From Methylobacterium sp. (GTDB lineage Bacteria; Pseudomonadota; Alphaproteobacteria; Rhizobiales; Beijerinckiaceae), in contig PERO01000021.1 of NCBI GenBank assembly GCA_002928875.1, forward strand, positions 1-64,000: a stretch of 64,000 nt of DNA, in the 5' to 3' direction. The notes under the pieces are model-generated. The model searched no databases and was not told the DNA's origin. It worked only from the letters and a program-made list of their open reading frames with translations. Shown one piece after another: positions 12,271-32,903 of the stretch. Position 1 is the first letter of the stretch, and every line of letters starts with the position of its first letter. The position numbers were made by a program, and so were the translations under genes.

Positions 12271-14063
12271 CCGCGACGCTCGACCTCTGGCCCATCGGTA
12301 ATTGCCAGGTTTCCGCCCTTATCGACCGGCAGGGCCGCTTCGTCTGGGGCTGCATTCCGCGCGTGGATGGCGATCCTGTTTTCTGCGCCCTGCTCGGCGA
12401 CGTGCGCCCGGAAGCGACGAACCCGAGCGGTTTCTGGACGATCGAACTCGAAGGCGTCGCCCGCACGCGCCAATCCTACTGGCGCAACACCGCCATTCTC
12501 GCCACCCTCCACGAGGACCACGAGGGCAATGCCATCGAGGTGGTGGATTTCTGCCCGCGATTCCGGCGCCACGAGCGGATGTATCGCCCGGTGGCATTCG
12601 CGCGGATCGTCAGGCCGCTGGCCGGCAGCCCGCGCATCACGGTGCGCCTGCGACCGGCGCACAGCTATGGCGCGGGGACACCCGAACGCACGCGCGGTTC
12701 GAACCACATCCGCTACAGCATGCCGGGACACACCCTGCGCCTCACCACGACCGCGCCGGTCGGCTTCATCGAGGAGGAGCGCGCGTTCCGGGTGGAGCGG
12801 CCGCTGCATTTCTTCCTCGGCCCCGATGAAAGCTTCGAGGGCAACCTCGCGGAGGGTCTGCAGGGCATGCTGACGCGCACGCGCGACGAATGGTGCCACT
12901 GGGTACGCGGGCTCGCGACACCGCTCGAATGGCAGGAGGCGGTGATCCGCTCGGCCATCGCGCTGAAGCTCTGCCAGCACGAGGAGACCGGCGCGATCGT
13001 CGCCGCGCTGACCACCTCCATCCCGGAGCATGCCGGTTCGGGCCGCAACTGGGATTACCGCTATTGCTGGCTGCGGGACGCCTATTACACCGTGCAGGCG
13101 CTGAACCGCCTCGGCGCGCTCGACGTGCTGGAAGGTTATCTCGAATATCTGCGCAACATCGTGGACAACACGCGGGGCGGCACCATCCAGCCGCTCTACG
13201 GCGTCGATGGCGAGGATATCCTGCCGGAAAGCACGGCGCCGGCGCTGCCGGGCTATCGCGGCATGGGGCCGGTGCGCTTCGGCAACCTCGCCTACCGGCA
13301 GGTGCAGCACGATGCCTATGGGCAGATCATCCTGTCGAACGTGCAGGCCTTCTTCGATCACCGGCTGTTCCGCATGGCGGGGGTCAGCGATTTCCAGGCG
13401 CTGGAGGCGATCGGCGAACGGGCCTGGCGCGCCTATGACCAGCCCGATGCCGGCATCTGGGAGCTGCGCACGCGCAACCACGTCCACACCTATTCCGCCG
13501 CGATGTGCTGGGCCGCCTGCGACCGGCTTGCCAATGCGGCCCTCGCGCTCGGCCTCGAGGATCGCGCGGTATTCTGGCGCGAGCGGGCAAGCATCATGCA
13601 TGACCGGATCGAACAGGCCGCATGGCGCCCCGGGACGAACCGGATCTCGGCGACCTTCAGCGGCGACGATCTCGATGCGAGCCTGCTGCAACTGCTCGAC
13701 CTGCGGTTCCTGTCGCCGAACGATCCACGCTATCTCGGCACGCTCGAAGCGGTGGAGAAGGGGCTGCGGCGCGGCGCGCATATGCTGCGCTACAACACCG
13801 AGGATGATTTCGGCCTGCCGGCGACTGCCTTCAATGTCTGCACCTTCTGGCTGATCGAGGCGCTGCATCTGACCGACCGCACCGAGGAAGCGCGCCAGCT
13901 CTTCGACGAGATGATCGCGCGGCGCACCGCGGCCGGGCTGCTCTCCGAGGATATCGACCCCGCGACGGGCGAACTCTGGGGCAATTATCCGCAGACCTAC
14001 TCGCTGGTGGGGCTCATCAACTGCGCCGCCCTGCTGTCCAAACCCTGGAGAACGCTGCGATGA
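12267..14063 (+). CDS. Glycoside hydrolase family 15 protein (glucoamylase/trehalase type)
   Basis: A 598-residue protein with the bacterial GH15 layout: an N-terminal beta-sandwich (IGNCQVSALIDRQGRFVWGC) and a C-terminal alpha/alpha barrel with NWDYRYCWLRDAYYTVQALNRLG near residue 260. No signal peptide, so it is cytoplasmic. Known activities in the family are glucoamylase, trehalase and related glucosidases. Lying between otsB and otsA with ATGA overlaps on both sides suggests an alpha-glucoside or trehalose-turnover role beside synthesis. Substrate specificity cannot be read from the sequence. Confidence 0.9.
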   Translation: MTATLDLWPIGNCQVSALIDRQGRFVWGCIPRVDGDPVFCALLGDVRPEATNPSGFWTIELEGVARTRQSYWRNTAILATLHEDHEGNAIEVVDFCPRFRRHERMYRPVAFARIVRPLAGSPRITVRLRPAHSYGAGTPERTRGSNHIRYSMPGHTLRLTTTAPVGFIEEERAFRVERPLHFFLGPDESFEGNLAEGLQGMLTRTRDEWCHWVRGLATPLEWQEAVIRSAIALKLCQHEETGAIVAALTTSIPEHAGSGRNWDYRYCWLRDAYYTVQALNRLGALDVLEGYLEYLRNIVDNTRGGTIQPLYGVDGEDILPESTAPALPGYRGMGPVRFGNLAYRQVQHDAYGQIILSNVQAFFDHRLFRMAGVSDFQALEAIGERAWRAYDQPDAGIWELRTRNHVHTYSAAMCWAACDRLANAALALGLEDRAVFWRERASIMHDRIEQAAWRPGTNRISATFSGDDLDASLLQLLDLRFLSPNDPRYLGTLEAVEKGLRRGAHMLRYNTEDDFGLPATAFNVCTFWLIEALHLTDRTEEARQLFDEMIARRTAAGLLSEDIDPATGELWGNYPQTYSLVGLINCAALLSKPWRTLR

Positions 14064-15424
14064 GCCGGCTGATCGTGATCTCGAACCGGGTGCAGGTGCC
14101 GAAAGGCGACGACGAGGGCGCGCAAGGCGGGCTCGCGGTCGCGCTTTTCGCCGCGTTGCGCCGGCAGAACGGCATCTGGTTTGGCTGGTCCGGCGAGACG
14201 GGCGAATCGCGCGAACTGCGTTTCGAAACCAACGCGGATGTCACGACCGCGGTCATCGACCTCTCCGAACAGGATGTCGAGGAATACTATAACGGCTACG
14301 CGAACCGCACGCTCTGGCCGCTCTTCCATTACCGCCTCGATATGGCCGAGCACGAACGCGATTATCAGGGCGGCTACCAGCGCGTGAACCGCTCCTTCAG
14401 CGAGATCATCGCGCCGCATATCGAGCCGGACGACCTGGTCTGGGTGCATGATTACCACCTCATTCCGCTCGGCAGCCTGCTGCGCGAGCGGGGCGTGACG
14501 AACCGGATCGGCTTCTTCCTGCATATCCCCTGGCCGCCCAAGCGCCTGCTCACCGCCCTGCCCGAGCATCAGGCGCTGGTCGAGACGCTGTTCGCCTATG
14601 ACATGGTCGGTTTCCAGACCGAGGAATGGCTCGATTCCTTCCGCGATTACGTCACCAACAACATGGAGGCGACGATCGACGGCGACCGCATCACCGTCGG
14701 CGAGCGCACGATCCGCGCCATCGCCTGCCCCATCGGCATCGATGCGCAGGATTTCGTGGCGTCGCTGTCGAGCGAGGACGCGACCTCGACCCATGCCCGC
14801 ATGGTCGAAAGCTCGAATGGCCGCGATCTCATCGTCGGCGTGGACCGGCTCGATTATTCGAAGGGCCTGCAGGAGCGCTTCACCGGCTACGAGCGCTTCC
14901 TCAGCACCCATCCCGAGCGCGCGGCGCGGGTCTATCTGCTGCAGATCGCACCGCCGACCCGCGAAGCCGTGCAGAGTTATCGCGACATCCGCGCCGTGCT
15001 CAACGCCCAATCCGGCCTGATCAACGGCACGCATGCCGATATCGACTGGGTGCCGCTGCGCTATGTCAATCGCGGGCATTCGCGGAGCATGCTCGGCGGC
15101 ATCTACCGCGCGGCACGGATCGGGCTCGTGACCCCCTTGCGCGACGGCATGAACCTCGTCGCCAAGGAATACATCGCCGCGCAGGACCCGGACGATCCCG
15201 GCGTGCTGATCCTGTCGCAATTCGCCGGCGCGGCCGCCCAGCTCGATCAGGCCATCCTCGTGAACCCCTACAGCGCCGACGACATCGCGGAGGCCATCGA
15301 ACGGGCGCTCTCGATGCCGCGCGAGGAGCGCATCGCGCGCTGGCGCCCGATGTTCGAGAGCGTGATGGCCGAGGACGTGACCTGGTGGCTGGCCCGCTTC
15401 ATCGATGCGCTGAAGGAGGCCTGA
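14060..15424 (+). CDS. otsA: Alpha,alpha-trehalose-phosphate synthase
   Basis: Transfers glucose from a nucleotide sugar to glucose 6-phosphate to form trehalose 6-phosphate (GT20). The 454-residue protein begins [16 protein letters not shown] and has [44 protein letters not shown] and [14 protein letters not shown], all classic OtsA blocks. The ATG overlaps the GH15 stop. With otsB two genes upstream, this completes the OtsAB route, a common osmotic and desiccation defence in alphaproteobacteria. It is the last gene of the operon; a Pho box for the next unit starts 10 bases after its stop. Confidence 0.95.
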
Positions 15425-15433
15425 GCGGGGTTC

Positions 15434-15451
15434 CTGTCATGACAGCGTCAA
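15434..15451 (+). promoter_or_regulatory. Candidate Pho box before the first oligopeptide-type permease
   Basis: CTGTCAT-GACA-GCGTCAA: a perfect consensus PhoB half-site followed, at the correct 11-base spacing, by a weaker one (four of seven matches). It also contains the 12-base palindrome CTGTCATGACAG. It ends 22 bases before the ATG at 15474, so there is little room for a -10 box and start site; this makes it the least certain of the four boxes. Confidence 0.55.
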
Positions 15452-15473
15452 GCAAGGCCCGTTCTATGGGTCG

Positions 15474-16409
15474 ATGCCCGGCTTCGTCGCGATCAAGATT
15501 CTGCGCGCGCTCGTCACGCTGCTGATCTGCGTGACGGCGGTCTTCGTCGTGCTGCGCCTCGCCGGCGACCCGGCGGACATGCTGCTACCAGAGGACACGC
15601 CGGCCGAGATCAAGGCGGAATACCGCCAACGCTGGGGCCTCGAAGGCTCGATCCCTGAGCAATTCGGCCGCTACATGGTGGCGCTGGCCCGGGGCGATCT
15701 CGGCGTCTCCTTCGCCGATGGCCGGCAGGCCGCCGAGGTGGTGTTCGAGGCCATGCCGAACACATTCCTGCTCGGGCTCTCGGCCATCCTGCTCGCGCTG
15801 ATGCTTGGCCTGCCCGCCGGGCTCATCGCCGCCCTTCGCCACAACGGCACGGTGGATCGCCTGCTGATGGCCATCGCCGTGGCCGGGTTCTCGATCCCCA
15901 GTTTCTTCTTCGCGATCCTGCTGATCCTCACCTTCTCGCTCACCCTGCGCTGGCTGCCCGCCGCCGGCACGGACACGCTGTGGCACATGATCCTGCCGAC
16001 TCTCGCGCTGTCGGCGGCTTTGGTGGGCAAGCTCGCGCGCTACACGCGAACGGCGATGCTCGACGTGCTCGGCCAGCCCTATATGCGCACCGCGAAAGCG
16101 AAAGGTCTGCGGCACAGCGCCGTGATGCTGCGCCATGCGCTGCCGAATGCCGCGGTGCCGATCCTGATGTTCCTCGGCATCGAGATCGGCCTGATCCTGA
16201 CGGGCGCCGCCGTGGTCGAAACCATCTTCGCCTGGCCGGGCCTCGGGCGGTTGCTCGTCTCTTCCGCTGCCGCGCGCGACCTGCCCGTGGTGCAGGGCGT
16301 GATCCTGCTCGTCGCTTTCGTGATCGTGCTGTCGAACCTCGCCGTCGACATCCTGCATGCGATGCTCGACCCGCGCATCGAGCTGATCCGCCGGAATCCG
16401 GCCACGTGA
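15474..16409 (+). CDS. Oligopeptide-type ABC permease, DppB-like (set 1)
   Basis: A 311-residue inner-membrane permease of the DppB/OppB family. The N-terminal span is followed by FVVLRLAGDPADMLLPEDTP, and a periplasmic loop contains QFGRYMVALARGDLGVSFADG. The ATPase-contact loop includes RTAMLDVLGQPYMRTAKAKGL, and VVETIFAWPGLGRLLV lies near the end. The adjacent gene encodes its DppC partner, but this set has no ATPase genes of its own. The DppD/DppF pair at 22444-24437 probably serves it. A Pho box precedes it. Confidence 0.92.
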   Translation: MPGFVAIKILRALVTLLICVTAVFVVLRLAGDPADMLLPEDTPAEIKAEYRQRWGLEGSIPEQFGRYMVALARGDLGVSFADGRQAAEVVFEAMPNTFLLGLSAILLALMLGLPAGLIAALRHNGTVDRLLMAIAVAGFSIPSFFFAILLILTFSLTLRWLPAAGTDTLWHMILPTLALSAALVGKLARYTRTAMLDVLGQPYMRTAKAKGLRHSAVMLRHALPNAAVPILMFLGIEIGLILTGAAVVETIFAWPGLGRLLVSSAAARDLPVVQGVILLVAFVIVLSNLAVDILHAMLDPRIELIRRNPAT

Positions 16410-16429
16410 GCAGCGTGGAGGCCTCGCCC

Positions 16430-17281
16430 ATGCGGATGGTCGCGCGTGCCCCGCGGCCGGGCATGCCATGGCCCATCCGGCTGGCCGCCGGTTTCCTCGT
16501 CGCGATAACGCTCGTGGCCCTGCTCGCGCCGCTGATCGCGCCTTATGATTTCGCGACGCAGAACCTCGCGCGGCGCCTGCGCCCGCCGGTCTTCTGGGGC
16601 GGCGAATGGGCCCATCCGCTCGGCACGGACAATCTCGGCCGGGACATTCTCTCCCGCCTGATCTACGGCATCCGCACCTCGATCGCCGTGGCGCTTGCCG
16701 GCACGCTGATCGGCGCGGTGACGGGCACGTTCCTCGGCTATATCGCCGCCCGCTTCCGGGGCTGGCTCGACGAAGCCATCATGATGCTCGTGGATGTGCA
16801 GGCGGCGCTTCCGGCCTTCTTCATCGCCATCGCCTGCATCGCGCTGATCGGCACGGAGATCTGGATCTTCGTGGTGCTGGTTAGCCTCGAGGGCTGGGAG
16901 CGCTACACGAAGCTGGTGCGCGGGCTCGTGCTCTCGCAGATGGGCGCGGGCTACATCCGCGCGGTGGAGGCGCTGGGCGCGGGCCGCCTGCGCATCGATC
17001 TCCGGCATGTCTTGCCGAACATCGCCGCCCCGCTCATCGTGCAGATGTCGATCACCTTCCCGTGGGTCATCCTGCTGGAATCGACCCTGTCGTTCCTGGG
17101 GCTCGGCATCCAGCCCCCCGGCACCTCGCTCGGCCAGATGCTCGGCGCGGGTCGCAACTACTTGCTGCAGGCGTGGTGGATCGCCGTTCTGCCCGGCGCG
17201 CTGATCTTCCTGACGACCCTTTCGATGAGCCAGTTCGGCGACTGGCTGCGCGACGTGCTCGACCCCACGCTGGATCGCTGA
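16430..17281 (+). CDS. Oligopeptide-type ABC permease, DppC-like (set 1)
   Basis: A 283-residue permease of the DppC/OppC family. It shows the usual N-terminal span and GTDNLGRDILSRLIYGIRTS, then the ATPase-contact loop GYIRAVEALGAGRLRIDLRHVL and FLGLGIQPPGTSLGQML. The ATG at 16430 has an excellent ribosome binding site (GGAGG, 8-base spacing). A GTG at 16406 overlapping the dppB stop is an in-frame alternative. It pairs with the 15474 permease. Confidence 0.91.
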   Translation: MRMVARAPRPGMPWPIRLAAGFLVAITLVALLAPLIAPYDFATQNLARRLRPPVFWGGEWAHPLGTDNLGRDILSRLIYGIRTSIAVALAGTLIGAVTGTFLGYIAARFRGWLDEAIMMLVDVQAALPAFFIAIACIALIGTEIWIFVVLVSLEGWERYTKLVRGLVLSQMGAGYIRAVEALGAGRLRIDLRHVLPNIAAPLIVQMSITFPWVILLESTLSFLGLGIQPPGTSLGQMLGAGRNYLLQAWWIAVLPGALIFLTTLSMSQFGDWLRDVLDPTLDR

Positions 17282-17295
17282 AGCGCGTTCCGGCG

Positions 17296-17324
17296 GCGTC
17301 ATGAAGCCGTCAAGCGAGTGTCAC
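17296..17324 (+). promoter_or_regulatory. Pho box with three phased repeats
   Basis: Three seven-base units at exactly 11-base intervals: GCGTCAT (17296-17302), CCGTCAA (17307-17313) and GTGTCAC (17318-17324). Each matches the PhoB unit CTGTCAT at five of seven positions, all keeping the GTCA core. It ends 61 bases before the binding-protein ATG at 17386, a normal position for a PhoB-activated promoter. Confidence 0.7.
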
Positions 17325-17385
17325 CCGCGCGTCGTTTCGTTGGCCTACCGGATCGGCATTCCCGCCGAAGCCGGAGCTGAACGCC

Positions 17386-18945
17386 ATGACCATCTCGCGC
17401 CGCACCTTCACGCAGGCCGGCCTTGCCGCGCCCTTCATCGTCACCGCGCCGAATGCCTTCGCCCAGAGCGATCGCCGGCCGGTGCTGACCGTGGCCGTGG
17501 CCGAATTGCCCAAGGTGCTGGAGCCGGCGCTGGAACTGAACAATGTCGGCACCCGCGTCACCTATTCGGTGTTCGACACGGTCATTCGCCGCGATTTCAG
17601 GGGCTCGCCCGATGGCGGCGGCTCGAAACTGCTGCCGCATCTCGCGACGAACTGGTCGCGCGAGGATGCGCAGACGCTGCTCGTCACCTTCCGCAACGAC
17701 GTGCGCTTCCATAACGGCGACCGCATGACCGCCGAAGATGTCGCCTACACCTTCCGGGAAGGCCGCCTCTGGGGCGAGAAGCCACAAATCCCCGGCGGCC
17801 GCGCGTATTTCGGCACGCTGGCCGGCGTCGAGGCCGTGGACCAGAACACCGTGCGCTTCAGGACCCGCGTGCCAGATGTGCTGCTGGAACAAAGGCTGGC
17901 GTCCTGGTGCTCGTGGATCGTGAACAAGCGGCATTACGAGCAGGTCGGCATGGAAGGCTTTGGCCGCAACCCCGTCGGCACCGGCCCGTTCCGCTTCTCC
18001 CGGATGAAATCCAACGAGTTCATGGAGTTCGAGGCGTTCGACGATTACTGGATGGGCCGCCCCAGCGCGCGCCGCGTGATTTTCCGCGAAGTGCCGGAAC
18101 TGGCGACGCGCGTGGCCGGGCTCGTCTCGGGCGAGTTCGACCTCATCACCAATGTGCCGCCCGACCAGATCGAGGTTCTGAACCGCTATCGCGATATCGA
18201 GCCGCGCTCCGTGGTGCTGGCGAACAGCCACCTGCTGACCTTCGATGCCCGCTCGCCGCAAACCAGCGACAAGCGCATCCGCAAGGCGCTTTCGGTCGCG
18301 ATCGACCGCAAGAAGCTCGTGGACAGCCTCTGGCTCGGCAAGGCGGCGATCCCCGCTTCGCACAATTACCCGGAATATGGCGACATGTTCCTCGAAGGCC
18401 GTGGCCTGCCGTTTGATCCGGCCCGCGCGAAGGCGCTGCTTTCGGAAGCCGGCTACAAGGGTGAGCCGATCACCTACCGCACCCTGCCAAACTACTACAC
18501 CGGCGCGCTGGATGCGGCGCAGATCATCGTCGAGATGTGGAAGGCCGTCGGCATCAACGCCCAGCTTCAGGTGGTCGAAAGCTTCGCGCAGATGCAAGCC
18601 GCCGGGCAGCAGGTGGGCAACACCTCGAATTCCACGCGCCTGCCCGATCCCATGGGCGCTTTGTGGGTCTCCTGGGGCCCGGCTTCGGAGTTCCAGCGGA
18701 GCAAGGCTTTCGGCGAGGCCGATGCCGCGCCGTTCAACGCCATCGGTCGCCAGCTCGAGGCCGAGACGCGCGCGCCGGAGCGCAAGGCGCTCTTCGCGAA
18801 GATGCTCGATGCCTGGGAGGATGCCTGCCCCGGCACGATCCTCTACCAGCCGCTCGAAACCTATGGCGTGAAGAAGAAGATCGGCTGGAAGCCGTACAGC
18901 TTCTACTTCATGGACCTGCGCGCCGATAACCTCAGCTTTGCGTGA
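17386..18945 (+). CDS. Oligopeptide-type ABC substrate-binding protein (first of two)
   Basis: A 519-residue periplasmic receptor of the SBP_bac_5 (DppA/OppA) family. The N-terminus MTISRRTFTQAGLAAPFIVT ending in NAFAQ is a twin-arginine-type signal. Family features include LLPHLATNWS, VRFHNGDRMTAEDVAYTF, GTGPFRFSRM and RKALSVAIDRKKLVDSL. Members bind peptides, opines, nickel, glutathione or sugars. Here a triple-repeat Pho box precedes the gene and a metallophosphoesterase gene overlaps its end, so a phosphorus-containing ligand is more likely than a peptide. That is inference. Confidence 0.92.
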   Translation: MTISRRTFTQAGLAAPFIVTAPNAFAQSDRRPVLTVAVAELPKVLEPALELNNVGTRVTYSVFDTVIRRDFRGSPDGGGSKLLPHLATNWSREDAQTLLVTFRNDVRFHNGDRMTAEDVAYTFREGRLWGEKPQIPGGRAYFGTLAGVEAVDQNTVRFRTRVPDVLLEQRLASWCSWIVNKRHYEQVGMEGFGRNPVGTGPFRFSRMKSNEFMEFEAFDDYWMGRPSARRVIFREVPELATRVAGLVSGEFDLITNVPPDQIEVLNRYRDIEPRSVVLANSHLLTFDARSPQTSDKRIRKALSVAIDRKKLVDSLWLGKAAIPASHNYPEYGDMFLEGRGLPFDPARAKALLSEAGYKGEPITYRTLPNYYTGALDAAQIIVEMWKAVGINAQLQVVESFAQMQAAGQQVGNTSNSTRLPDPMGALWVSWGPASEFQRSKAFGEADAAPFNAIGRQLEAETRAPERKALFAKMLDAWEDACPGTILYQPLETYGVKKKIGWKPYSFYFMDLRADNLSFA

Positions 18946-19823
18946 CGAACCAGACCATGACCAGGACCATGACGATCGTGCAGGTATCGGATACGCATCT
19001 CTCCGAGACGCACGCCTATTTCATCGACAATTTCCGCGTCTTCGCGGATGACATGGCCGCGCTGAAGCCGGATCTCATCGTGCATACCGGTGATGTCAGC
19101 TTCAATGGCCCGGCGCGGCCGGCGGATCTCGCCTTCGCCCGCCGGCAGCTCGACAGCCTCGGCATCCCGATGCTCGTCCTCGCCGGCAACCACGATATCG
19201 GCGAGGCGCCGCGCCATTCGCGCCTCAACCAGCCGCTCGACGAAGCGCGCCTCGCGGCCTGGACCGACGCGTTCGGCCCGCTGTTCTGGCGGCACGACCT
19301 GCCCGGCTGGCGACTGATCGGCCTCGATACGGCGCTGATGGCCTCCGACCGCCGGGAGGAACGCGAGCAGATCGCCTTCCTCGACGACGCGCTGTCCACC
19401 CTCGAGGGACGCAAGGCGATCGTCTTCATGCACATGCCGCCCTTCCAGGACGATCCCGAAGACCCGCGCCCCACCACATCGGCGGTGCCGTTCGAGGCGC
19501 GAGTTGCCCTGCTCGACCGCCTCGAACAGGGCGGCGTCTCGGTCATCGCCTGCGGGCACCTGCATGTCTATCGCCAGCTCGTCCATCGCGGGATGGAGAT
19601 CGTCTGGGCGCCGACCACCGCGATGGTCAGCATCGAGAAGCAGTTCCGCCACTGGCAGGTCTGGACGCGCCCCGGCTATCTCGTCTGGCGCATCGAGGGC
19701 GCGGCAATCAGCCACGAACTGGTCGAGCCCCGCCTGATGATCGGGATGGACACCTCCCGATGGACCGAAATCGGCGGCACCACCACCAACATGCCCGAGC
19801 GGCCGTTGCGCCGCTTCGCCTGA
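18942..19823 (+). CDS. Class III-type metallophosphoesterase (CpdA/Icc-like phosphodiesterase)
   Basis: A 293-residue cytoplasmic dimetal phosphoesterase. Metal-binding motifs appear in order: VSDTHL, HTGDVSF, LAGNHDIG, FMHMPP and CGHLHVYRQL. It resembles CpdA, GpdQ and related phosphodiesterases. A GTG at 18942 overlaps the binding-protein stop (GTGA), with ATG at 18957 as an alternative. No signal peptide is present. Its place between two transporter halves under Pho boxes suggests it cleaves an imported phosphodiester, such as a glycerophosphodiester, to release usable phosphate. Substrate is unproven. Confidence 0.9.
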   Translation: MTNQTMTRTMTIVQVSDTHLSETHAYFIDNFRVFADDMAALKPDLIVHTGDVSFNGPARPADLAFARRQLDSLGIPMLVLAGNHDIGEAPRHSRLNQPLDEARLAAWTDAFGPLFWRHDLPGWRLIGLDTALMASDRREEREQIAFLDDALSTLEGRKAIVFMHMPPFQDDPEDPRPTTSAVPFEARVALLDRLEQGGVSVIACGHLHVYRQLVHRGMEIVWAPTTAMVSIEKQFRHWQVWTRPGYLVWRIEGAAISHELVEPRLMIGMDTSRWTEIGGTTTNMPERPLRRFA

Positions 19824-19860
19824 TCGTCTTTCGCATTTCTCTCCCAACACCGAGGCCAAC

Positions 19861-20688
19861 ATGCATTCCTCCAAGCCCCTCCCCGTTCTCGGCTGCGCCG
19901 TTCCGCTCTCCGGTCTGCGCATGCACCGGGACTGGATCCTCGAGAAGCAGCGCGATCTCGAGATCCAGGATTTCTTCTGGGCCGAAATCCTCAACGGGGA
20001 CTGGTCGGGCCTTGCGGCCGAGGTGAAGAAGGAACTCGATGGCTATCGGGGCCGGCTCGGCATCCACGGCCCGTTCTGGGGCTTCACCATCGCCTCGAAG
20101 GACCCGGATGTCCGCGCCATCGTCGAAAAGCGCATGCATCAGGGCCTCGATGTCTGCGCAGCCCTCGGCGCGACGCAGATGGTCATCCATTCGCCCTACA
20201 CCACCTGGGATTACAACAACCTCGATTACAATGTCGGCGCGCGCGACGAGGTGATCGAGCGGACCCACCAGACCATCGGCTCGGCGGTGAAGCGCGCGGC
20301 CGAGATGGGCTGCGAACTCGTCATCGAGAACATCGAGGACAAGGATGCCCATGCCCGCGTGGCGCTGGCGAAGAGCTTCGACAGCCCGGCCGTGAAAGTC
20401 TCGATCGATACCGGCCACGCGAATTACGCCTATGGCTCCACCGATGGCCCGCCGGTCGATTACTTCGTGCATGCCGCCGGCGAGATGCTCGCGCATGTGC
20501 ACCTTCAGGATACGGACGGCCACGCCGACCGGCACTGGAAGCCGGGCGAAGGCACGATCCCGTGGACCGAGGTGTTCCGGGCGCTGGCGCGGCTCGAGGC
20601 GAAACCGCGTCTCATCCTCGAACTGCGCCACAAGGAGGAGATCCGCGCCGGCGCGGATTATCTCACCCGCCTCGGCCTCGCGGAGTGA
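19861..20688 (+). CDS. Sugar phosphate isomerase/epimerase family TIM-barrel protein
   Basis: A 275-residue AP endonuclease 2-superfamily TIM barrel (XylE/IolE-like). Likely metal ligands are in GIHGPFWGF, MVIHSPYTTW, LVIENIEDKDA, VSIDTGHANYA, HVHLQDTDGHADRHWKPGEGTI and LILELRHKEE. It follows the phosphodiesterase gene by 37 bases in the same direction. A working idea is that it processes the sugar or polyol part released from the imported phosphodiester. No exact substrate can be read. Confidence 0.87.
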   Translation: MHSSKPLPVLGCAVPLSGLRMHRDWILEKQRDLEIQDFFWAEILNGDWSGLAAEVKKELDGYRGRLGIHGPFWGFTIASKDPDVRAIVEKRMHQGLDVCAALGATQMVIHSPYTTWDYNNLDYNVGARDEVIERTHQTIGSAVKRAAEMGCELVIENIEDKDAHARVALAKSFDSPAVKVSIDTGHANYAYGSTDGPPVDYFVHAAGEMLAHVHLQDTDGHADRHWKPGEGTIPWTEVFRALARLEAKPRLILELRHKEEIRAGADYLTRLGLAE

Positions 20689-20713
20689 TGCGCGGCGTGA
20701 TGCTTCGCCGGCT

Positions 20714-20731
20714 GCGTCATCCACCTGTCAA
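20714..20731 (+). promoter_or_regulatory. Pho box before the second binding protein
   Basis: GCGTCAT-CCAC-CTGTCAA: two PhoB half-sites with correct 11-base spacing, matching the consensus at five and six of seven positions. It lies 88 bases before the ATG at 20820. A weak -10-like TCTAGA follows at 20740-20745. This makes 20820-26247 a second Pho-controlled transcription unit. Confidence 0.7.
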
Positions 20732-20819
20732 CGAGACGGTCTAGAGCAGGATCGTAGCGCGTCCCCGCCGAGTTCCGGGCGACGCGGCGATCAGGTTCAT
20801 CAACCGAACGAGGGTTTCC

Positions 20820-22451
20820 ATGCCTTTCACCCGTCGCACCCTCGTGGGTGCAGGCGCGACTGCGCTCGCCGCCACCGGCCTTCCGCGCTTCGCCATCGGC
20901 CAGGCCGACAACCGCCCGTCGATCACCATCGCGGTGCAGAAGATCGCGAACTCCAACACGCTCGATGTCCTGCGCGAGCAGTCGAATGTCGGCGAGCGTG
21001 TGTTCTACACCTCGCTCTGGGAGCCGCTGATCTCGAAGGATTGGCTGGGCAAGCTCGCGCCGCGCCCCGGCCTCGCGACCGAGTGGAAGCGCATCGACGA
21101 CCAGACCGTCGAACTGAAGCTCCGCCAGGGCGTGAAGTTCCACAATGGCGCGGAGATGACGGCCGAGGACGTGGTCTTCTCCTTCGGCCGCGAGCGCATG
21201 TTCGGCAACAGCGAAGCCAAGAACCGCACCACGCTGCAGGCCTTCGAGCGCATTCCCACGCCGCGCCCCGGCAAGGAACTGCCGCCGGAAATCATCGCGG
21301 TCGCCCGCCGCTCCTGGCCCGACCTGCTGCGCGTCGAGGCGGTGGACCGCTACACCGTCCGCTTTTTCAACGCGACGCCCGACGTGACGCTCGAGGGACG
21401 CCTCGCCCGCTACGGCTCCGATATCATGAGCCGGAAGGGCTGGGAGGATGCCGCCTCCTATCTCGACTGGGCGCGCCAGCCCGTCACCACCGGCCCCTAC
21501 AAGGTGGTGGAGTTCAAGCCCGACAACATGCTCGTGCTCGAGGCGCATGACGAATACTGGGGCGGCCGCCCGCCGCTGAAGCGCATCCGCTTCGTGGAAG
21601 TGCCGGAAGTGCCGAGCCGCATCGCCGGCCTGCTCTCCGGCCAGTACCAGTTCGCCTGCGACATCCCGCCGGACCAGATCGCGCAGATCGAGAAGAACGC
21701 GGCCTTCGAGGTGCAGGGCGGCACGATCCTGAACCACCGTCTCACGGTGTTCGACAAGAACCACCGCCAGCTCCAGAACCCGCTGGTGCGCCGCGCCTTC
21801 ACCCATGCCATCGACCGGCAGGCGATCGTCGACTCGCTCTGGGCCGGCCGCACCGTGGTGCCGAAGGGCCTGCAATGGGATTATTACGGCGACATGTTCC
21901 ACGCCGACTGGTCGGTGCCGGAATATAACCCGAAGCTCGCGCAGGATCTCCTGAAGCAGGCGGGCTACAAGGGCGACCCCATCCCCTATCGGCTGCTCAA
22001 CAACTACTACACCAACCAGAACGCCACCGCGCAGATCCTCGTCGAGATGTGGCGCTCGGTGGGCCTCAACGTCCAGATCGAGACCAAGGAGAACTGGACG
22101 CAGATCATGGAGCGTGGCGAAGCCCGCGCCATCCGCGACTGGTCGAATTCCGCGCCGTTCTCCGATCCGGTCTCGTCGATCGTGAACCAGCACGGCCCGA
22201 ACGGCCAGCAGCAGCAGATCGGCGAATGGACCAATGCCGAGATGAACCAGCTCTGCGAGTTCCTCGAGACCTCGACCGATCGCGCCAAGCGCAAGCAGGC
22301 TTTCCGCCGCATGCTGGAGATCTGCGAGCGGGAAGACCCGGCCTATACCGTGCTGCACCAGAACGCGACCTTCACGGCCAAGCCGAAATCGTTGAAATGG
22401 CAGGCCTCCCCGGCCTTCGCCATGGATTTCAGGCCCGGAAACTATGTCTGA
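20820..22451 (+). CDS. Oligopeptide-type ABC substrate-binding protein (second of two)
   Basis: A 543-residue SBP_bac_5 receptor with a Tat-type leader (MPFTRRTLVGAGATALAATG, then RFAIGQ). It shares segments with the first receptor at 17386: ITIAVQKIANSNTLDVLREQSN, VKFHNGAEMTAEDVVFSF and IDRQAIVDSLWAG. The two are clearly paralogues but differ throughout. The gene overlaps the dppD-like ATPase start by eight bases and heads a complete importer operon under a Pho box. Confidence 0.92.
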   Translation: MPFTRRTLVGAGATALAATGLPRFAIGQADNRPSITIAVQKIANSNTLDVLREQSNVGERVFYTSLWEPLISKDWLGKLAPRPGLATEWKRIDDQTVELKLRQGVKFHNGAEMTAEDVVFSFGRERMFGNSEAKNRTTLQAFERIPTPRPGKELPPEIIAVARRSWPDLLRVEAVDRYTVRFFNATPDVTLEGRLARYGSDIMSRKGWEDAASYLDWARQPVTTGPYKVVEFKPDNMLVLEAHDEYWGGRPPLKRIRFVEVPEVPSRIAGLLSGQYQFACDIPPDQIAQIEKNAAFEVQGGTILNHRLTVFDKNHRQLQNPLVRRAFTHAIDRQAIVDSLWAGRTVVPKGLQWDYYGDMFHADWSVPEYNPKLAQDLLKQAGYKGDPIPYRLLNNYYTNQNATAQILVEMWRSVGLNVQIETKENWTQIMERGEARAIRDWSNSAPFSDPVSSIVNQHGPNGQQQQIGEWTNAEMNQLCEFLETSTDRAKRKQAFRRMLEICEREDPAYTVLHQNATFTAKPKSLKWQASPAFAMDFRPGNYV

Positions 22452-23430
22452 GAACCGTGCCTCTCTGGTGAGCCTGAAGGGGCTCACCGTCTCCTTCGAT
22501 GGCGTGCGTGTGCTGCACGGCGTCGATCTGGAGGTCGCCGCCGGCGAGGCCGTGGGCCTTGTCGGCGAAAGCGGTTCGGGCAAGTCGGTGACCTGGCTCG
22601 CGGCTCTCGGCCTGCTGCCGCGCAAGGCGCAGGTTTCCGGCAGCGCCACGCTCAAGGGTATCGAACTGATCGGCGCATCTCCCCGCGTGCTCGACAGCGT
22701 GCGCGGCGGGCGGATCGCGATGATCTCGCAGGACCCGGCCTCGGCGCTGAACCCGGTCTTGCGCGTCGGCAAGCAGATCGGCGAGGCGCTGGCGCTGCAT
22801 CGCGGGCTTTCCGGCCAGGCGCTGCGGGCCGAGGCCCTGCGCCTGCTCGAACTGGTCGGCATCCCCGATGCGCCGCGCCGGCTCGACAGCTATCCGCATG
22901 AATTCTCCGGCGGCCAGAACCAGCGCGTGATGATCGCGATGGCGCTGGCCGGCCAGCCGGAACTGCTCGTCGCGGACGAGCCGACCACCGCGCTCGACGT
23001 GACGATCCAGGCGCAGATCCTCGATCTGCTGCGCGAGATCCGCCGCGAGATGAACATGGCGCTCGTGCTCATCAGCCACGATCTCGGCGTGATCTCCGAA
23101 ACCTGCGACCGCGTGGGCGTGATGTATGCCGGGCGCATCGTCGAGCAGGCCTCGGCCGCGCGGCTGTTCGAGACACCGCAGCACCCCTATACGCAGGGCC
23201 TGCTCGCGTCGCTGCCTCCGCTCGATGGTCCCCGCCGGCGCATGCGATCGATTCCCGGCGTGGTGCCCGATCCGCGTCATCTGCCGATGGGCTGTGCCTT
23301 CGCACCGCGCTGCGACCGCCCGACCTCGCGCTGCCTGCAGGCCCAGCCGATGCTGTCGCCGCTGGAGGCCGGCCACGCCGTCGCCTGCTTCCATCCCGCC
23401 TCCGCCAAGCCGGGCATGCGCGCGGCATGA
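22444..23430 (+). CDS. Oligopeptide-type ABC ATPase, DppD-like
   Basis: A 328-residue ABC ATPase. Walker A GESGSGKS lies near residue 46; the ABC signature is [16 protein letters not shown] and Walker B is [12 protein letters not shown]. The C-terminal oligopeptide-ABC extension contains the cysteine-bearing segment [12 protein letters not shown], which often holds an Fe-S cluster in this family. It pairs with the next ATPase. This single pair is probably shared by both permease sets in the region. Confidence 0.93.
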
Positions 23431-24437
23431 TCGGCCGGACACGCATCGAGCCGCTGGTCTCGGCCGAGAACCTGCGCCGCACCTATCGCAGCCGCAAGGG
23501 CCTGTTCGGCGCGACCACCGATGTCCGCGCGGTGGATTCCGTGAGTTTCGCGGTGATGCCGGGCGAGACGCTCGGCATCGTTGGGGAATCGGGTTCGGGC
23601 AAATCCACGATGGGCCGGCTGGCGCTGGGGCTCGAAACGCCCGATCGCGGTCAGGTGTTCTATCGCGGCCTTCCGATGCCGCCGCCCGGCACGGGCGAAT
23701 GGCGCAAGCTGCGACAGAAGATGCAGATGATCTACCAGGATCCGCTGGGAGCGCTCGACCGGCGCCTTCCGGTGCTGACGCAAATCCGCGAGCCGCTCGA
23801 CATCCACCAGCCTGCCGCAGCCCGCGCCAACGAGGAAGCGGCGGCGAAGATGCTCGCACGCGTCGGACTTTCGCCCGAACAGGGCGCGCGCTACCCGCAT
23901 GAACTCTCCGGCGGGCAGCGTCAGCGCGTGGTGCTCGCCCGCGCCCTGATGACCCGACCGGATTTCCTCGTCTGCGACGAGCCCGTCTCGGCGCTGGATG
24001 TTTCCATTCAGGCGCAGGTGGTGAACCTGCTCGCCGATCTGCAGGCGGAATTCGGCCTGGCGATGCTGTTCATCAGCCATGACCTGCGCGTGGTGCGGCA
24101 GATCTCGAACCGTGTTGCCGTGATGTATCTCGGCCAGTTCGTCGAGGAAGGCAGCGCCGACGATCTCTTCGCCGAGCCGCTGCACCCCTATACCCGCGCG
24201 CTGGTCTCCGCCGCGCCGCAGGCCCGCAGCGCGGGCAAGGCCGAGCGCGTGGTGCTCGCCGGCGAGCCGCCGAACCCGGCCCGGCGCCCGGCCGGCTGCG
24301 CCTTCCACCCGCGCTGCCCCGTCGCGCGGCCGGAATGCCGTGTCACCGCGCCGGAACTCCGCTCGGTCGGCCCCGCGCGACGCGTTGCCTGCCATGCCGT
24401 CGAGGCGGAAATCCTCAGCTTCGGCGAGGTGGCCTGA
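23427..24437 (+). CDS. Oligopeptide-type ABC ATPase, DppF-like
   Basis: A 336-residue ABC ATPase. Walker A is [17 protein letters not shown], the signature ELSGGQRQRVVLARAL and Walker B FLVCDEPVSALD. The C-terminal segment CAFHPRCPVARPEC is the oligopeptide-ABC extension. The ATG overlaps the stop of dppD by four bases, and its own stop shares a base with the start of the next permease gene. Confidence 0.93.
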   Translation: MIGRTRIEPLVSAENLRRTYRSRKGLFGATTDVRAVDSVSFAVMPGETLGIVGESGSGKSTMGRLALGLETPDRGQVFYRGLPMPPPGTGEWRKLRQKMQMIYQDPLGALDRRLPVLTQIREPLDIHQPAAARANEEAAAKMLARVGLSPEQGARYPHELSGGQRQRVVLARALMTRPDFLVCDEPVSALDVSIQAQVVNLLADLQAEFGLAMLFISHDLRVVRQISNRVAVMYLGQFVEEGSADDLFAEPLHPYTRALVSAAPQARSAGKAERVVLAGEPPNPARRPAGCAFHPRCPVARPECRVTAPELRSVGPARRVACHAVEAEILSFGEVA

Positions 24438-25378
24438 TGGCGCGCTTCCTTCTCCTGCGGATCGTGCGGGCGCTGGTGACGATCGTTCTGGTGGTAACCT
24501 TCGCCTTCGTCGTCCTGCGCCTCTCCGGCGATCCGGCGCAGATCATCCTCGGCCCCGAGGCACCGCCCGAAGCGATTGCGGCCTTCCGCAAGGCCTGGGG
24601 ACTCGATGATCCGATCTGGCTGCAATACCTGAATTATTTCGGCGCGATCGCGCAGGGCGAACTCGGGCGATCGATGCGCGACGGGCGCAGCGCCATCGTG
24701 CTGGTCACCGAACGCATCCCGCTGACACTGGCGCTCACGGTGCCGGCGCTCATCCTGAAACTGGGGATCGGCATCCCGGCGGGCATCTACGCGGCCTTGC
24801 ATCGCGGCTCGCTTGCCGATCGCATCGTCATGGCGCTGGCGGTCGCGGGCTTCACGGTGCCGAGTTTCGTGCTGGGGCTGACCTTGGTGCTGGTGTTTGC
24901 CGTGCAACTCGGCTGGCTGCCTTCCGGCGGGCAGGACAGCTGGCGACACGCCATCCTGCCGATCCTGACACTCGGCATCGGCGGCGCGGCGGTGCTCGCG
25001 CGGTTCACGCGCTCGGCCATGCTGGAAGTTCTGGGCCAGCCCTATATCCGCGCGGCGAGCGCCAAGGGCGTGCCGTGGCATCAAGTGATCTGGAAGCACG
25101 CGCTGCCCAACGCCGCGATCCCCACGGTGACGATCGTCGGCTTCATGGTCGGCACGCTGATCGCCGGCGCGGTGGTGGTGGAGAGCGTGTTCTCCTGGCC
25201 CGGCGTGGGGCGGCTGCTGGTGGTGGCGGTGGCGAACCGCGACCTCGCGGTGGTGCAGTGCATCCTGCTGCTGGTGGCCGCGACGATGGTCGTTTCGAAC
25301 CTGATCGTCGATTTCCTCTACGGCTTCCTCGATCCCCGCCTGCGGTCGGGCGCGGAAACGGCAAAGGCCGAGACATGA
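24437..25378 (+). CDS. Oligopeptide-type ABC permease, DppB-like (set 2)
   Basis: A 313-residue DppB-type permease. It begins MARFLLLRIVRALVTIVLVV, then FVVLRLSGDPAQIILGPEAPPE, ARFTRSAMLEVLGQPYIRAASAKGV and VVESVFSWPGVGRLLVV. It is strikingly similar to the permease at 15474, suggesting the two sets arose by duplication of one importer. Its ATG overlaps the dppF stop (TGATG). Confidence 0.93.
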   Translation: MARFLLLRIVRALVTIVLVVTFAFVVLRLSGDPAQIILGPEAPPEAIAAFRKAWGLDDPIWLQYLNYFGAIAQGELGRSMRDGRSAIVLVTERIPLTLALTVPALILKLGIGIPAGIYAALHRGSLADRIVMALAVAGFTVPSFVLGLTLVLVFAVQLGWLPSGGQDSWRHAILPILTLGIGGAAVLARFTRSAMLEVLGQPYIRAASAKGVPWHQVIWKHALPNAAIPTVTIVGFMVGTLIAGAVVVESVFSWPGVGRLLVVAVANRDLAVVQCILLLVAATMVVSNLIVDFLYGFLDPRLRSGAETAKAET

Positions 25379-26247
25379 CGGACCAGACCCTTCCCGCCGC
25401 GACAGCGGGCGAGCCGATCGAACACAGCGCCCGTGCCCGCCGCATTCCGCTCCTCGTCTGGATCGCGATCGGCTGGCTCGTCGCCATGGTGATCATCGCG
25501 CTCTTCGCCGAAGCGCTCGCGCCCTATCGCTACACCGCGCCGGATCTGCGCAACCGCCTCGCCCCGCCCGGCCACGCCCTGCACTGGCTCGGCACGGATG
25601 AACTGGGCCGCGACGTACTCTCGCGGCTTTTCATTTCCATCCAGATCTCGCTGCTGATCGCCTTCGGCGCATCGCTGATTTCCGCCGCCCTGGGCACGAT
25701 CCTGGGCTTTCTCGCCGCCTATTTCCGGGGCTTCATCGAGCAGGTCGTGCTGATGCTCGCGGATTTCCAGGCCTCGATGCCATTCCTGATCCTCGCGCTC
25801 TCGGTGCTCGCCTTCTTCGGCACCTCGCTGGTGCTGCTGGTCTGCCTGATGGGCCTGTTCGGCTGGGAGCGCTATGCCCGCATCGCGCGGGGGCTGGCGA
25901 TCTCGGCGAACGCGCAGGGTTATGCCGCGGCGGTCGGGCAGCTCGGCGCCTCGCCGTTCCGCATCTACCTGCGCCACGTGCTGCCGAACATCGCCTCGAC
26001 CCTCATCGTGATGATGACGCTGGTCTTTCCGGAGGTGATCCTGCTCGAAAGCGCCCTCTCCTTCCTCGGCCTCGGCGTGCAGCCGCCGGTGACGAGCCTC
26101 GGCAACATGGTGGGCTATGGCCGCGAATACATCACCCGCGCGCCGTGGATCATGCTCGCGCCTGCGGTGACCATCGTGCTGACGACCCTGGCCGTGTCGA
26201 TCCTCGGCGATCACCTGCGCGACAAGCTCGACCCCACCCTGCGGTGA
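25375..26247 (+). CDS. Oligopeptide-type ABC permease, DppC-like (set 2)
   Basis: A 290-residue DppC-type permease with LGTDELGRDVLSRLFISIQIS, RYARIARGLAISANAQGYAA and FLGLGVQPPVTSLGNMVGYG. It closes the operon that starts at 20820 and overlaps the previous gene by four bases (ATGA). Only nine bases separate its stop from the convergent phnE-like gene, with no visible hairpin terminator. Confidence 0.93.
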   Translation: MTDQTLPAATAGEPIEHSARARRIPLLVWIAIGWLVAMVIIALFAEALAPYRYTAPDLRNRLAPPGHALHWLGTDELGRDVLSRLFISIQISLLIAFGASLISAALGTILGFLAAYFRGFIEQVVLMLADFQASMPFLILALSVLAFFGTSLVLLVCLMGLFGWERYARIARGLAISANAQGYAAAVGQLGASPFRIYLRHVLPNIASTLIVMMTLVFPEVILLESALSFLGLGVQPPVTSLGNMVGYGREYITRAPWIMLAPAVTIVLTTLAVSILGDHLRDKLDPTLR

Positions 26248-26256: not shown

Positions 26257-27045
26257 TCAGATCAGCCGCTTGCGGATGACGTTCGACACCTGCTCCACCG
26301 CAATCACCAGCGCGAAGATCGCGAGGATGATGGTGCAGGCCGTGTCGTAATCGAAGAGATCGAAGGCGACTTTCAGTTCCACGCCGATGCCGCCGGCCCC
26401 GACAAGGCCGAGGATCACCGAGCCGCGCACGGCCTTCTCGAGACTGAAGAGCGAGGTCGCGACGAACGAGGGCAGCGCGAGCGGCACCACGGCCGAGAAG
26501 ATCAGCCCCGTGCGCGTGGCGCCGATGGTCGAGAGCGCCTCCTGCGGGCCCTTGTCGGCTTCCTCCATCGCTTCGGCGAAGAAGCGGCCGGCAAAGCCGA
26601 TCTTGTCCACCATGATGGCCATCACGCCTGCAGCCGGGCCGAGGCCGACGGCGATGACGAAGAGCAGCGCCCAGACGAGATCCGGCACGGTGCGAAACAG
26701 CGCGATCAGCGCCCGTGACGCATGCTTCAGCACCGGGTGCGGCGACAGGCCCTCCGCCGCGAGCACGGCGATGGGAAAGGCGAGGATCAGCCCCAGGATG
26801 CAGCCGACCAGCGCCATCTGGAACGTCACCAGCAACTGCTCGAGAATGCGCGGGAGGCGTTCGAGATCGGGCGGGAACATCCGCTCCAGCATCGAGCCGA
26901 GCGCGGGAATGCCGCGCACCATGCGCTCCCAGGAAAGGCCCACGCTCGAAAACGACCAGAGGATGAAGGCCAGCACCACGACGAGCATCGTGAAGGCGAG
27001 CGCGTTCGGCCGCTCCCAGCGGGCCGGTGCCGATGTTTCAGCCAT
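26257..27045 (-). CDS. phnE: Phosphonate-type ABC permease
   Basis: A 262-residue inner-membrane permease of the PhnE family. It has the characteristic RIPDVLW-like segment ALFRTVPDLVWALLFVIAVGLGPAAGVMA (split here by membrane spans), then KGPQEALSTIGATR and GLVGAGGIGVEL. The ATG at 27045 overlaps the phnC stop by eight bases. Frames extending upstream run into phnC and are rejected. Last gene of the phnM-phnD-phnC-phnE unit. Confidence 0.92.
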   Translation of the reverse strand: MAETSAPARWERPNALAFTMLVVVLAFILWSFSSVGLSWERMVRGIPALGSMLERMFPPDLERLPRILEQLLVTFQMALVGCILGLILAFPIAVLAAEGLSPHPVLKHASRALIALFRTVPDLVWALLFVIAVGLGPAAGVMAIMVDKIGFAGRFFAEAMEEADKGPQEALSTIGATRTGLIFSAVVPLALPSFVATSLFSLEKAVRGSVILGLVGAGGIGVELKVAFDLFDYDTACTIILAIFALVIAVEQVSNVIRKRLI

Positions 27046-27868
27046 GGTTGGCAGTGTCCCTGTCCGTTTCGGCCGGCGGGCGCTCGAAAAACGCGCGAAG
27101 CTGTTCCGCATGCGCCACGCGGCTGTCGAGTTCGAGCGTGACGATCCCGTCGGCCAGCCCGACGATCCGGTCCGAGAAGGCGAGCGTGTGCTCGATGCGA
27201 TGTGAGATCACCACCAGCGCGAGGCCCTTGTCATGCGCGAGGCTGTAGAGCAATTCCATCAGCGCGCGCCCGGCGCGCGGGTCGAGGCTGGCATCGGGTT
27301 CGTCGGCGAGAACGAGTTCCGGCCGCTGCATCAGCATGCGGGCGATGGCCACGCGCTGCGATTGCCCGCCCGAGAGCGAATCCGCCCGCTGAAGAGCGCG
27401 ATCGGCGAGGCCCACGGCGGCGAGGCACGCCATGGCCTCGTCGCGGATCGCGGCCGGTGCGAGCGCGTGGTGCCAGGTCCGCGGGCCGCTCATCCGGGCC
27501 TGCACGCCATGGATGACGTTGGTGAGCACCGACAGGCGACCCACGAGATTGTGCTTCTGGAACACGAAGCCCACGCGGGAGCGGAACGCCTTCAAGGCCT
27601 TCCGGTCGAGCCCGCGAACCTCCTGATCCAGCACCGTCACCGTGCCGGCATCGGGCTCGACGAGCCGCACGATTGAACGCAGCAGGGTCGACTTGCCCGT
27701 GCCGTTCGCGCCGATGAGCGCGGTGACCTCGCCGGGGCGCGCCTCGAACGTGACATCGCGCAGGATCTGGCGTGCGCCGAAACGCTTGGCGAGCCCGGAT
27801 ACGAAAAGAACCGGAGGCGCGCGGGGCGCCTCCGGTTCCGGGGAGAGACGATGAGCCAGCGCGGTCAT
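27038..27868 (-). CDS. phnC: Phosphonate-type ABC ATPase
   Basis: A 276-residue ABC ATPase of the PhnC family. Walker A is GANGTGKSTLLRSIVRL, the signature SLSGGQSQRVAIARML and Walker B LVLADEPDASLD. PhnC-like features are GFVFQKHNLVGRLSVLTNVIHG and ISHRIEHTLAFSDRIVGL. The ATG at 27868 (MTALAHRL) lies seven bases before the phnD stop codon, consistent with one transcript. It powers the PhnE permease for phosphonate or phosphite-like substrates. Confidence 0.92.
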   Translation of the reverse strand: MTALAHRLSPEPEAPRAPPVLFVSGLAKRFGARQILRDVTFEARPGEVTALIGANGTGKSTLLRSIVRLVEPDAGTVTVLDQEVRGLDRKALKAFRSRVGFVFQKHNLVGRLSVLTNVIHGVQARMSGPRTWHHALAPAAIRDEAMACLAAVGLADRALQRADSLSGGQSQRVAIARMLMQRPELVLADEPDASLDPRAGRALMELLYSLAHDKGLALVVISHRIEHTLAFSDRIVGLADGIVTLELDSRVAHAEQLRAFFERPPAETDRDTANHG

Positions 27869-27875
27869 GCCGCGC

Positions 27876-28763: not shown

Positions 28764-28784
28764 GGGAGGCTCCTTGTCGGGGGT

Positions 28785-29972: not shown

Positions 29973-30033
29973 TCCACCCTCCCCTTGCCTGTCGGGGGTT
30001 AGGAGATCGCTGTGACGGCGCGATTACGCCCTC

Positions 30034-30051
30034 ATGTCAGTGCCGTGACAG
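30034..30051 (-). promoter_or_regulatory. Pho box of the phnM-phnDCE operon
   Basis: On the minus strand CTGTCAC-GGCA-CTGACAT gives two PhoB units at 11-base spacing, each with six of seven matches to CTGTCAT. It is 62 bases from the phnM GTG at 29972, in the only gap large enough to hold a promoter. Phosphate-starvation control is the normal regulation of phn genes. Confidence 0.8.
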
Positions 30052-32779: not shown

Positions 32780-32818
32780 GGCTTTTCTTCCCCGAAATGA
32801 CGGCTTTTTTCTCGGATT

Positions 32819-32828: not shown

Positions 32829-32883
32829 GATGCCTTGCGCATCCCGTTGGGCAATCGGCCGCGGCGATTTCCCGCCACGGCCT

Positions 32884-32899: not shown

Positions 32900-32903
32900 C
32901 GGC

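Follow-up and report, generated by a model that had tools for sequence, protein, structure and literature searches.

A cluster of ten genes was analyzed in a stretch of Methylobacterium sp. DNA (64,000 nucleotides; hereafter the window). The stretch belongs to contig C9 (162 kb) in a genome of 3.24 Mb whose stated completeness is 84%. The genes are closely packed on the plus strand between positions 15474 and 26247, in the order DppB1-DppC1, SBP1-MPE, TIM, and SBP2-DppD-DppF-DppB2-DppC2. Their products are two permease pairs of the Opp/Dpp type, a pair of receptors, a single ATPase pair, a metallophosphoesterase (MPE), and a TIM-barrel enzyme (Table 1). Overlaps of a few bases link DppB1 to DppC1, SBP1 to MPE, and each gene from SBP2 onward to the next, through to DppC2. 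An original prediction, made from the sequence alone, had described a Pho-regulated uptake system with this gene set. Its ten genes and their coordinates were confirmed, with Pfam families in agreement (BPD_transp_1, SBP_bac_5, ABC_tran with oligo_HPY, Metallophos, and AP_endonuc_2). Below, L, G, and C numbers denote compared loci, compared genomes, and contigs of the window's genome, respectively.

Table 1. Genes and Pho boxes of the cluster and of the convergent phn operon (window positions)
Feature	Position	Strand	Remarks
Pho box 1, CTGTCAT-GACA-GCGTCAA	15434-15451	+	before DppB1; joint second-best matrix score; strict-pattern match
DppB1, module A permease	15474-16409	+	BPD_transp_1; 63-66% in L024, L025, L027, L028, L039, L040
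DppC1, module A permease	16406-17281	+	BPD_transp_1, OppC_N; 4-base overlap with DppB1
Pho box 2	17296-17335	+	before SBP1; half-sites in 11-base steps at 17296, 17307, 17318, and (weaker) 17329
SBP1, AccA-family receptor	17386-18945	+	Tat-like start SRRTF (by inspection)
MPE, GpdQ/Rv0805-like metallophosphoesterase	18942-19823	+	Metallophos
TIM barrel (AP_endonuc_2)	19861-20688	+	endonuclease-IV-like set of nine candidate metal ligands
Pho box 3, GCGTCAT-CCAC-CTGTCAA	20714-20731	+	before SBP2; joint second-best matrix score; strict-pattern match
SBP2, second AccA-family receptor	20820-22451	+	Tat-like start TRRTL (by inspection)
DppD ATPase	22444-23430	+	ABC_tran and oligo_HPY
DppF ATPase	23427-24437	+	ABC_tran and oligo_HPY
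DppB2, module B permease	24437-25378	+	BPD_transp_1; 87-89% in L024, L025, L039, L040
DppC2, module B permease	25375-26247	+	BPD_transp_1, OppC_N
phnE, phnC, phnD, phnM	26257-29972	-	convergent with the cluster; outside the conserved cluster
Pho box array before phnM	30012-30051	-	highest score in the window at 30034; the array continues at 30023 and 30012

The three Pho boxes predicted for the cluster (at 15434, 17296, and 20714) all exist, each with half-sites at 11-base spacing and each in front of one of the units. When both strands of the window were searched with a strict pattern (YGTCAH-N5-YGTCAH), four matches were obtained, all in the three cluster promoters and two of them in box 2; 0.18 matches were expected, and four were reached in none of 100 shuffles. 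We also scored the window with a matrix of two half-sites, the weights of which we set ourselves from the PhoB consensus. The five best of 127,966 positions were 30034 on the minus strand (18.0) and, on the plus strand, 20714 (17.6), 15434 (17.6), 17307 (15.9), and 17296 (15.0), with a gap to the sixth (12.0); the step at 17318 in box 2 scored 11.4. In 200 dinucleotide shuffles, the number of positions scoring at least 14.9 averaged 0.66 and never exceeded 3, compared with 5 in the window. Since a single position of at least 17.6 occurred in 11 of these 200 shuffles, what is unusual is the number and placing of the sites, not any one score. Box 1 ends 22 bases upstream of the DppB1 ATG, so transcription may begin at or near the start codon, giving a leaderless message. 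PhoB is encoded in the genome (338 bits against a cut-off of 296.2) and is predicted to bind and control the cluster promoters.

Both receptors belong to the AccA family. Against solved structures, SBP1 matched AccA (4ra1) with an E value of 4e-111 and the next non-AccA protein with 7e-31, while the corresponding values for SBP2 were 4e-81 and 5e-34; blastp identities to AccA were 38% and 34%. A maximum likelihood tree was built from 73 rows (AccA, 58 AccA-like proteins, and 14 other receptors of the window's genome) and rooted at the midpoint, several of the control branches being long. AccA and all 58 AccA-like rows formed one clade (100/100) that excluded the 14 other receptors; within it, SBP1 fell into a 24-row group with AccA (95/85) and SBP2 lay outside this group. 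Of 347 sampled genomes of the order, 52 have AccA-like receptors (E <= 1e-60, the window's own genome counted), and 13 of 36 examined loci can be placed on chromosomes because their contigs exceed 3 Mb.

According to the AccA structural report (PMC4526662), AccA binds a pyranose-2-phosphate motif, contacting the phosphate through Asn54, Ser419, Tyr375, and Tyr376 and the sugar O1 through Asn54, Asn284, Ser419, and Glu510. SBP1 retains N54, Y145, W178, N284, Y375, Y376, and S419 of AccA, with R at position 423 and Y at 510; SBP2 retains N54, N284, Y375, Y376, W418, and S419. All four phosphate-contacting residues are kept by 48 of the 58 AccA-like proteins, SBP1 and SBP2 included, and by none of the 14 other receptors of the genome, which have two of four at best (a further SBP_bac_5 gene, C12:27021, was absent from this comparison, hence 14 of 15 controls). 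On the sugar side, position 423 is always Arg and position 510 Tyr or Phe in the SBP1 subclade (12 rows), P423, S430, Q434, and F510 are common to all 16 rows of the SBP2 subclade, and Glu510 is present in only eight of the 58 AccA-like rows. Because SBP1 has Arg423/Tyr510 where SBP2 has Pro423/Phe510 (AccA numbering), their ligands are predicted to differ.

A profile search with MPE returned as the best match 2dxl (E 1.7e-40), which we take to be GpdQ (the database record says Phosphohydrolase), followed by Rv0805 (6e-34); in a single-sequence search, the E value against this class was only 1e-6. Residues D17, H19, D51, N83, H164, H206, and H208 were invariant in 27 aligned rows, and the dinuclear metal set of the GpdQ/Rv0805 class III phosphodiesterases (D-x-H, GD, GNH, H, and GHxH) is complete. 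No signal peptide is visible on inspection, as the first metal motif already occupies residues 17-19. MPE is a calcineurin-like protein of the GpdQ/Rv0805 kind and a predicted phosphodiesterase. On two Rhizobium plasmids (L169 8019-13076 and L171 8001-13057), relatives of MPE (~35%) are the first genes of sugar-type ABC operons; this enzyme family therefore also accompanies a second class of transporter.

In the TIM-barrel protein, H69, H110, E156, D183, H186, H212/H214, D223, H225, and E254 were invariant in 12 rows, nine positions that presumably correspond to the metal-ligand set of endonuclease IV. Its nearest solved relatives, TTHB071 and MJ1311, are proteins of unknown function that share these motifs in the aligned part. 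A reading as a simple epimerase lacks support: TTHB071 and MJ1311 outranked D-tagatose 3-epimerase, and the named epimerase models fell far under their cut-offs, the best NCBIfam isomerase/epimerase score being 39.4 bits against 300. The model of the phosphodiesterase CbiR was also below its cut-off (32.8 against 105). Of the TIM-barrel isomerase originally proposed, the barrel stands, by its AP_endonuc_2 match, and the isomerase assignment is not established, with no named model above cut-off; the protein may be a metal-dependent phosphoesterase instead.

To compare gene neighborhoods, we assembled 49 AccA-like loci: the window, 36 found through the receptor (L112, L115, and L116-L149), three found through a plasmid receptor (L166-L168), and nine found through MPE or NPP, an NPP-type phosphodiesterase described below. 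The 36 receptor-found loci were drawn from 70 listed places, mostly those with better scores, and two of them (L112 and L115) were found through NPP as well. A gene for MPE, NPP, GDPD, or PHP lay within 8 kb in 33 of the 49 loci, and in 41 when AP_endonuc_2 barrels were counted (NPP in 20, MPE in 19, TIM in 13, GDPD in 8, other AP_endonuc_2 proteins in 4, and PHP in 2). When only the 36 receptor-found loci were considered, the numbers were 20 and 28. Within the SBP1 subclade, eight rows have MPE and four have GDPD, the AccF family, no more than 150 bases from the receptor. As seven of the eight with MPE comprise the window and loci found through MPE, the exchange of MPE for GDPD rests on the four GDPD loci (L113 being NPP-found) and on L116. 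In the SBP2 subclade, TIM is present in 13 of 16 loci.

Because the enzyme queries came from the loci themselves, the control on the window's own genome was redone with Pfam models. None of the 15 other SBP_bac_5 genes had a Metallophos, Phosphodiest, GDPD, or AP_endonuc_2 match within 8 kb (PHP was not searched), the nearest phosphoesterase match being ~10.5 kb away, from C12:27021; both AccA-like receptor genes do have such a match. These controls bear on one alternative, an ordinary peptide importer that is Pho-regulated by chance and stands next to unrelated hydrolases. The transport subunits are indeed of the Opp/Dpp type, and the NCBIfam models that match the two receptors are all below cut-off, leaving specificity unassigned. 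Yet the receptors cluster with AccA and apart from the 14 other receptors of the genome, and phosphoesterases recur beside AccA-like receptors but not beside the genome's other SBP_bac_5 genes. We regard a peptide importer as extremely improbable.

The Pho matrix was also applied outside the window. Its best sites in two further regions of the genome, each the top of 19.5 kb, lie directly before a PstS-type gene in the pst region (18.4) and before phnG in the C-P lyase region (17.9). The PstS model TIGR00975 had no match in the genome; only two things identify the control gene as PstS-type, a TIGR02136 match under the cut-off (139.5 against 206.6) and a position flanked by PhoR- and PstC-type genes. 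In orthologous clusters, from Bosea and from the genus of the window's genome, sites of at least 12.5 bits precede DppB1 in L024, L025, L027, L028, L039, and L040; SBP1 in L025, L027, and L028, but not in L024, L039, or L040; SBP2 in L024, L025, L039, and L040; and TIM in L024 and L025, where it stands apart from MPE. Over 47 loci, two of which (L110 and L114) lack an AccA-like receptor, 28 of 68 sites of at least 14 bits fell into zones around cluster gene starts that make up 4.4% of the stranded sequence (binomial p 2e-20; as the compared loci are related, p values here are descriptive). With the true spacing, 20 of 51 sites of at least 15 bits lay in these zones, compared with 5 of 71 for six wrong spacings together (0/4, 0/15, 1/10, 0/14, 2/13, and 2/15 for spacings of 8, 9, 10, 12, 13, and 14); the motif read backwards gave 2 of 8 (p 0.046). 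A site of at least 14 bits directly precedes the receptor in 9 of the 36 receptor-found loci, compared with none of 14 control receptors of the window's genome, the best of which reached 9.6 (Fisher p 0.047). Pho boxes are common in the wider AccA-like family, though not general. One AccA-like receptor in another genome of the order is immediately preceded by a box that matches the consensus perfectly (CTGTCAT-GTGA-CTGTCAT; L134, 10538).

In related clusters there is an additional gene, for an NPP-type phosphodiesterase. Its orthologue in the window's genome (67%) lies on the same contig (C9:119805-121256) as the last gene of a ugpB-A-E-C operon, in which UgpC and UgpE score above and UgpA and UgpB below their cut-offs. 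In E. coli, the diesterase UgpQ occupies a like last place in the ugp operon. The putative phosphodiester system thus extends, through the NPP of relatives and the genome's own ugpBAEC operon, beyond the region first proposed for it. An NPP-ended ugpBAEC operon was seen also at L110:9297-15232, and in genome G030 (L114) TIM and NPP adjoin a similar ugp operon.

The nearest named genomes for the whole cluster are Bosea (L024 and L025, the latter from Bosea vaviloviae strain SD260). In each of the L024, L025, L039, and L040 stretches, as in the window, two permease pairs are accompanied by a single DppD and a single DppF, and module A (DppBC, SBP1, and MPE) has no ATPases of its own; a single DppDF pair is predicted to be common to both permease pairs. 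Module B (TIM, SBP2, ATPases, permeases, and NPP) occurs without module A in the L138 stretch. In genomes G012 and G002, the two modules are convergent with NPP in between, which suggests that they are two units and not one ancestral operon. A close MPE orthologue was present in only three of 17 genomes of the genus (the window's, G002, and G012), so the cluster is patchy in the genus. Gene calls in the compared loci are mechanical, and their starts may lie too far upstream.

We consider it quite probable, judging from sequence, that the cluster encodes a PhoB-controlled, Acc-type importer of intact phosphodiesters that are cleaved in the cytoplasm. Import of the intact diester and its cleavage inside the cell, as first proposed, is the best-supported reading because the receptors are of the AccA family, the residues that hold the phosphate are kept, and Pho boxes recur in orthologous clusters; an internal site of cleavage is supported by enzymes of phosphodiesterase families that have no visible signal peptides. 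The most likely ligands are glycerophosphodiester- or sugar-phosphodiester-like compounds, which are favored by the ugp link of NPP, the exchange of MPE for GDPD, and the kinship of MPE with GpdQ.

Several observations weigh against this reading. The compared loci are related, and MPE or NPP served to find nine of the 49. Eight of the 49 have no match of the enzyme families. At least one phosphate contact is missing in 10 of the 58 AccA-like proteins. Among the 36 loci found through the receptor, 14 have a Pho site of at least 14 bits before any cluster gene, and close upstream of the SBP1-like receptors on the three plasmid stretches (L166-L168) no same-strand site reaches 12 bits. In the window's genome, NPP lies outside the cluster, and no strong Pho box was found upstream of the ugp-NPP operon (best 11.9 bits). 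Finally, Glu510 and Trp423 of AccA are replaced in both SBP1 and SBP2, so the ligand class of AccA is not simply transferable to them.

The last point also bears on genuine scavenging of agrocinopine-type (pyranose-2-phosphate) opines, as performed by the acc system of Ti and opine plasmids; an opine-like compound was among the ligands first proposed. In favor of such a function, the receptors are of the AccA family, with SBP1 on the AccA side of the tree, and plasmid pAtK84b has an SBP1-like receptor (52.6%) in a gdpD operon adjoining canonical acc. However, the replaced residues include the Trp423 gate and Glu510, a residue that helps to fix O1 of the pyranose; the alteration of Glu510 argues against plain agrocinopines. 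Moreover, no GDPD (AccF-type) or regulator gene is among the ten cluster genes: the only GDPD match of the genome is on another contig (C10:59960), and the genome beyond the ten genes was not searched for AccR. We therefore view opine scavenging as improbable.

Under import of intact phosphodiesters, the system might work as follows. During phosphate hunger, PhoB would activate modules A and B as well as phnMDCE. The two AccA-family receptors, presumably periplasmic, would catch their ligands by the phosphate and hand them to the two permease pairs, both driven by the common DppDF ATPase pair. In the cytoplasm, the GpdQ-like MPE would split the diester into phosphate and a usable alcohol or sugar, as would, probably, the TIM barrel and the NPP encoded with ugpBAEC.

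Immediately downstream of the cluster, on the opposite strand, lies the phnMDCE operon. By NCBIfam models, PhnE is above cut-off, a PhnD-type subfamily is just above, PhnM-type subfamilies are above, and PhnC-type is below. This operon, whose Pho box scores highest in the window, sits apart from the C-P lyase genes, which are on C1 (phnJ at C1:726622). A conserved link between phn genes and the cluster was rejected, as no phn homologue was found in the L024, L025, L039, and L040 stretches. The same absence counts against the possibility that the cluster imports phosphonate esters or phosphonopeptides for the C-P lyase pathway, a role that the convergent phnMDCE operon with its own Pho box and the presence of phnJ and phnG in the genome might suggest. 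In addition, the receptors belong to the AccA type, which binds phosphate esters, and the phn operon has a PhnD of its own; we judge a phosphonate-related importer very unlikely. Farther along the window, 30072-48430 looks like a region of pyrimidine and nucleoside salvage, with a dihydropyrimidine-dehydrogenase-like pair (37513-40201), an amidohydrolase, an M20-type enzyme, a Bmp-type importer, and a pyrimidine nucleoside phosphorylase.

Import of whole phosphodiesters through a receptor class usually read as peptide transporters would constitute a little recognized route to organic phosphorus. The signature Asn54, Tyr375, Tyr376, and Ser419 (AccA numbering) could help to tell phosphate-ester receptors from peptide receptors. 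A broader proposal, for which we see the chances as evenly balanced, is that the agrocinopine system arose as one branch of a more ancient family of phosphodiester scavengers, mostly chromosomal, in Hyphomicrobiales and related groups. Many of its members would be Pho-controlled. The family would combine receptors of the AccA type with phosphodiesterases that can replace one another although their folds are unrelated (calcineurin-like, NPP, GDPD, PHP, and endonuclease-IV-like); Bosea-type members would operate two receptors of different ligand class with one motor. If so, opine feeding would be recruited phosphorus scavenging, which would explain the response of acc to phosphate. The AccA-like family thereby offers a testable origin for agrocinopine feeding.

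Among known systems, xanthosan utilization by XanT-XanP (PMC12807533) resembles the role proposed for the window cluster in that a sugar phosphodiester is taken up whole and then cut by a phosphodiesterase, but it uses a TonB-dependent transporter and a 2H phosphoesterase, protein families other than those of the window cluster. The ugpBAECQ system likewise combines import with intracellular cleavage of diesters, and the genome's own ugpBAEC operon ends in the orthologue of the NPP of Bosea clusters; its transporter is of the sugar type, in contrast to the Opp/Dpp type found here. GpdQ and Rv0805 resemble MPE by the profile matches (1.7e-40 and 6e-34) and the complete dinuclear metal set.

Another close parallel is acc. 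The original prediction held that oligopeptide-type importers are not usual Pho genes; this needs qualifying, as acc, reported to be phosphate-controlled (Kim et al., 2008, as cited in PMC4086400), is a precedent. Outside acc, no Pho-regulated AccA-like or oligopeptide-type phosphodiester importer appeared in the literature covered, which consisted partly of titles and the beginnings of abstracts. On the pAtK84b stretch (L166), the two best Pho matrix sites stand before the two accR-accA units (20.6 at 18352 and 23.9 at 21372), consistent with the reported phosphate control. A further acc-like operon adjoins canonical acc there (11893-17953), with the SBP1-like receptor, two ATPases, gdpD, accD, and accE. 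The window cluster shares with acc an AccA-family receptor, Opp/Dpp-type permeases and ATPases, an intracellular phosphodiesterase (AccF in acc; predicted here), and phosphate control, which its Pho boxes indicate for the window cluster. It differs in that receptors and permease pairs number two each beside a single ATPase pair, in having a GpdQ-like MPE and a TIM barrel where acc has AccF, and in the replacement of Glu510 and other residues on the sugar side. We conclude that the system of the window probably works like acc and uses the same receptor family, yet is not acc, having different enzymes and probably other ligands.

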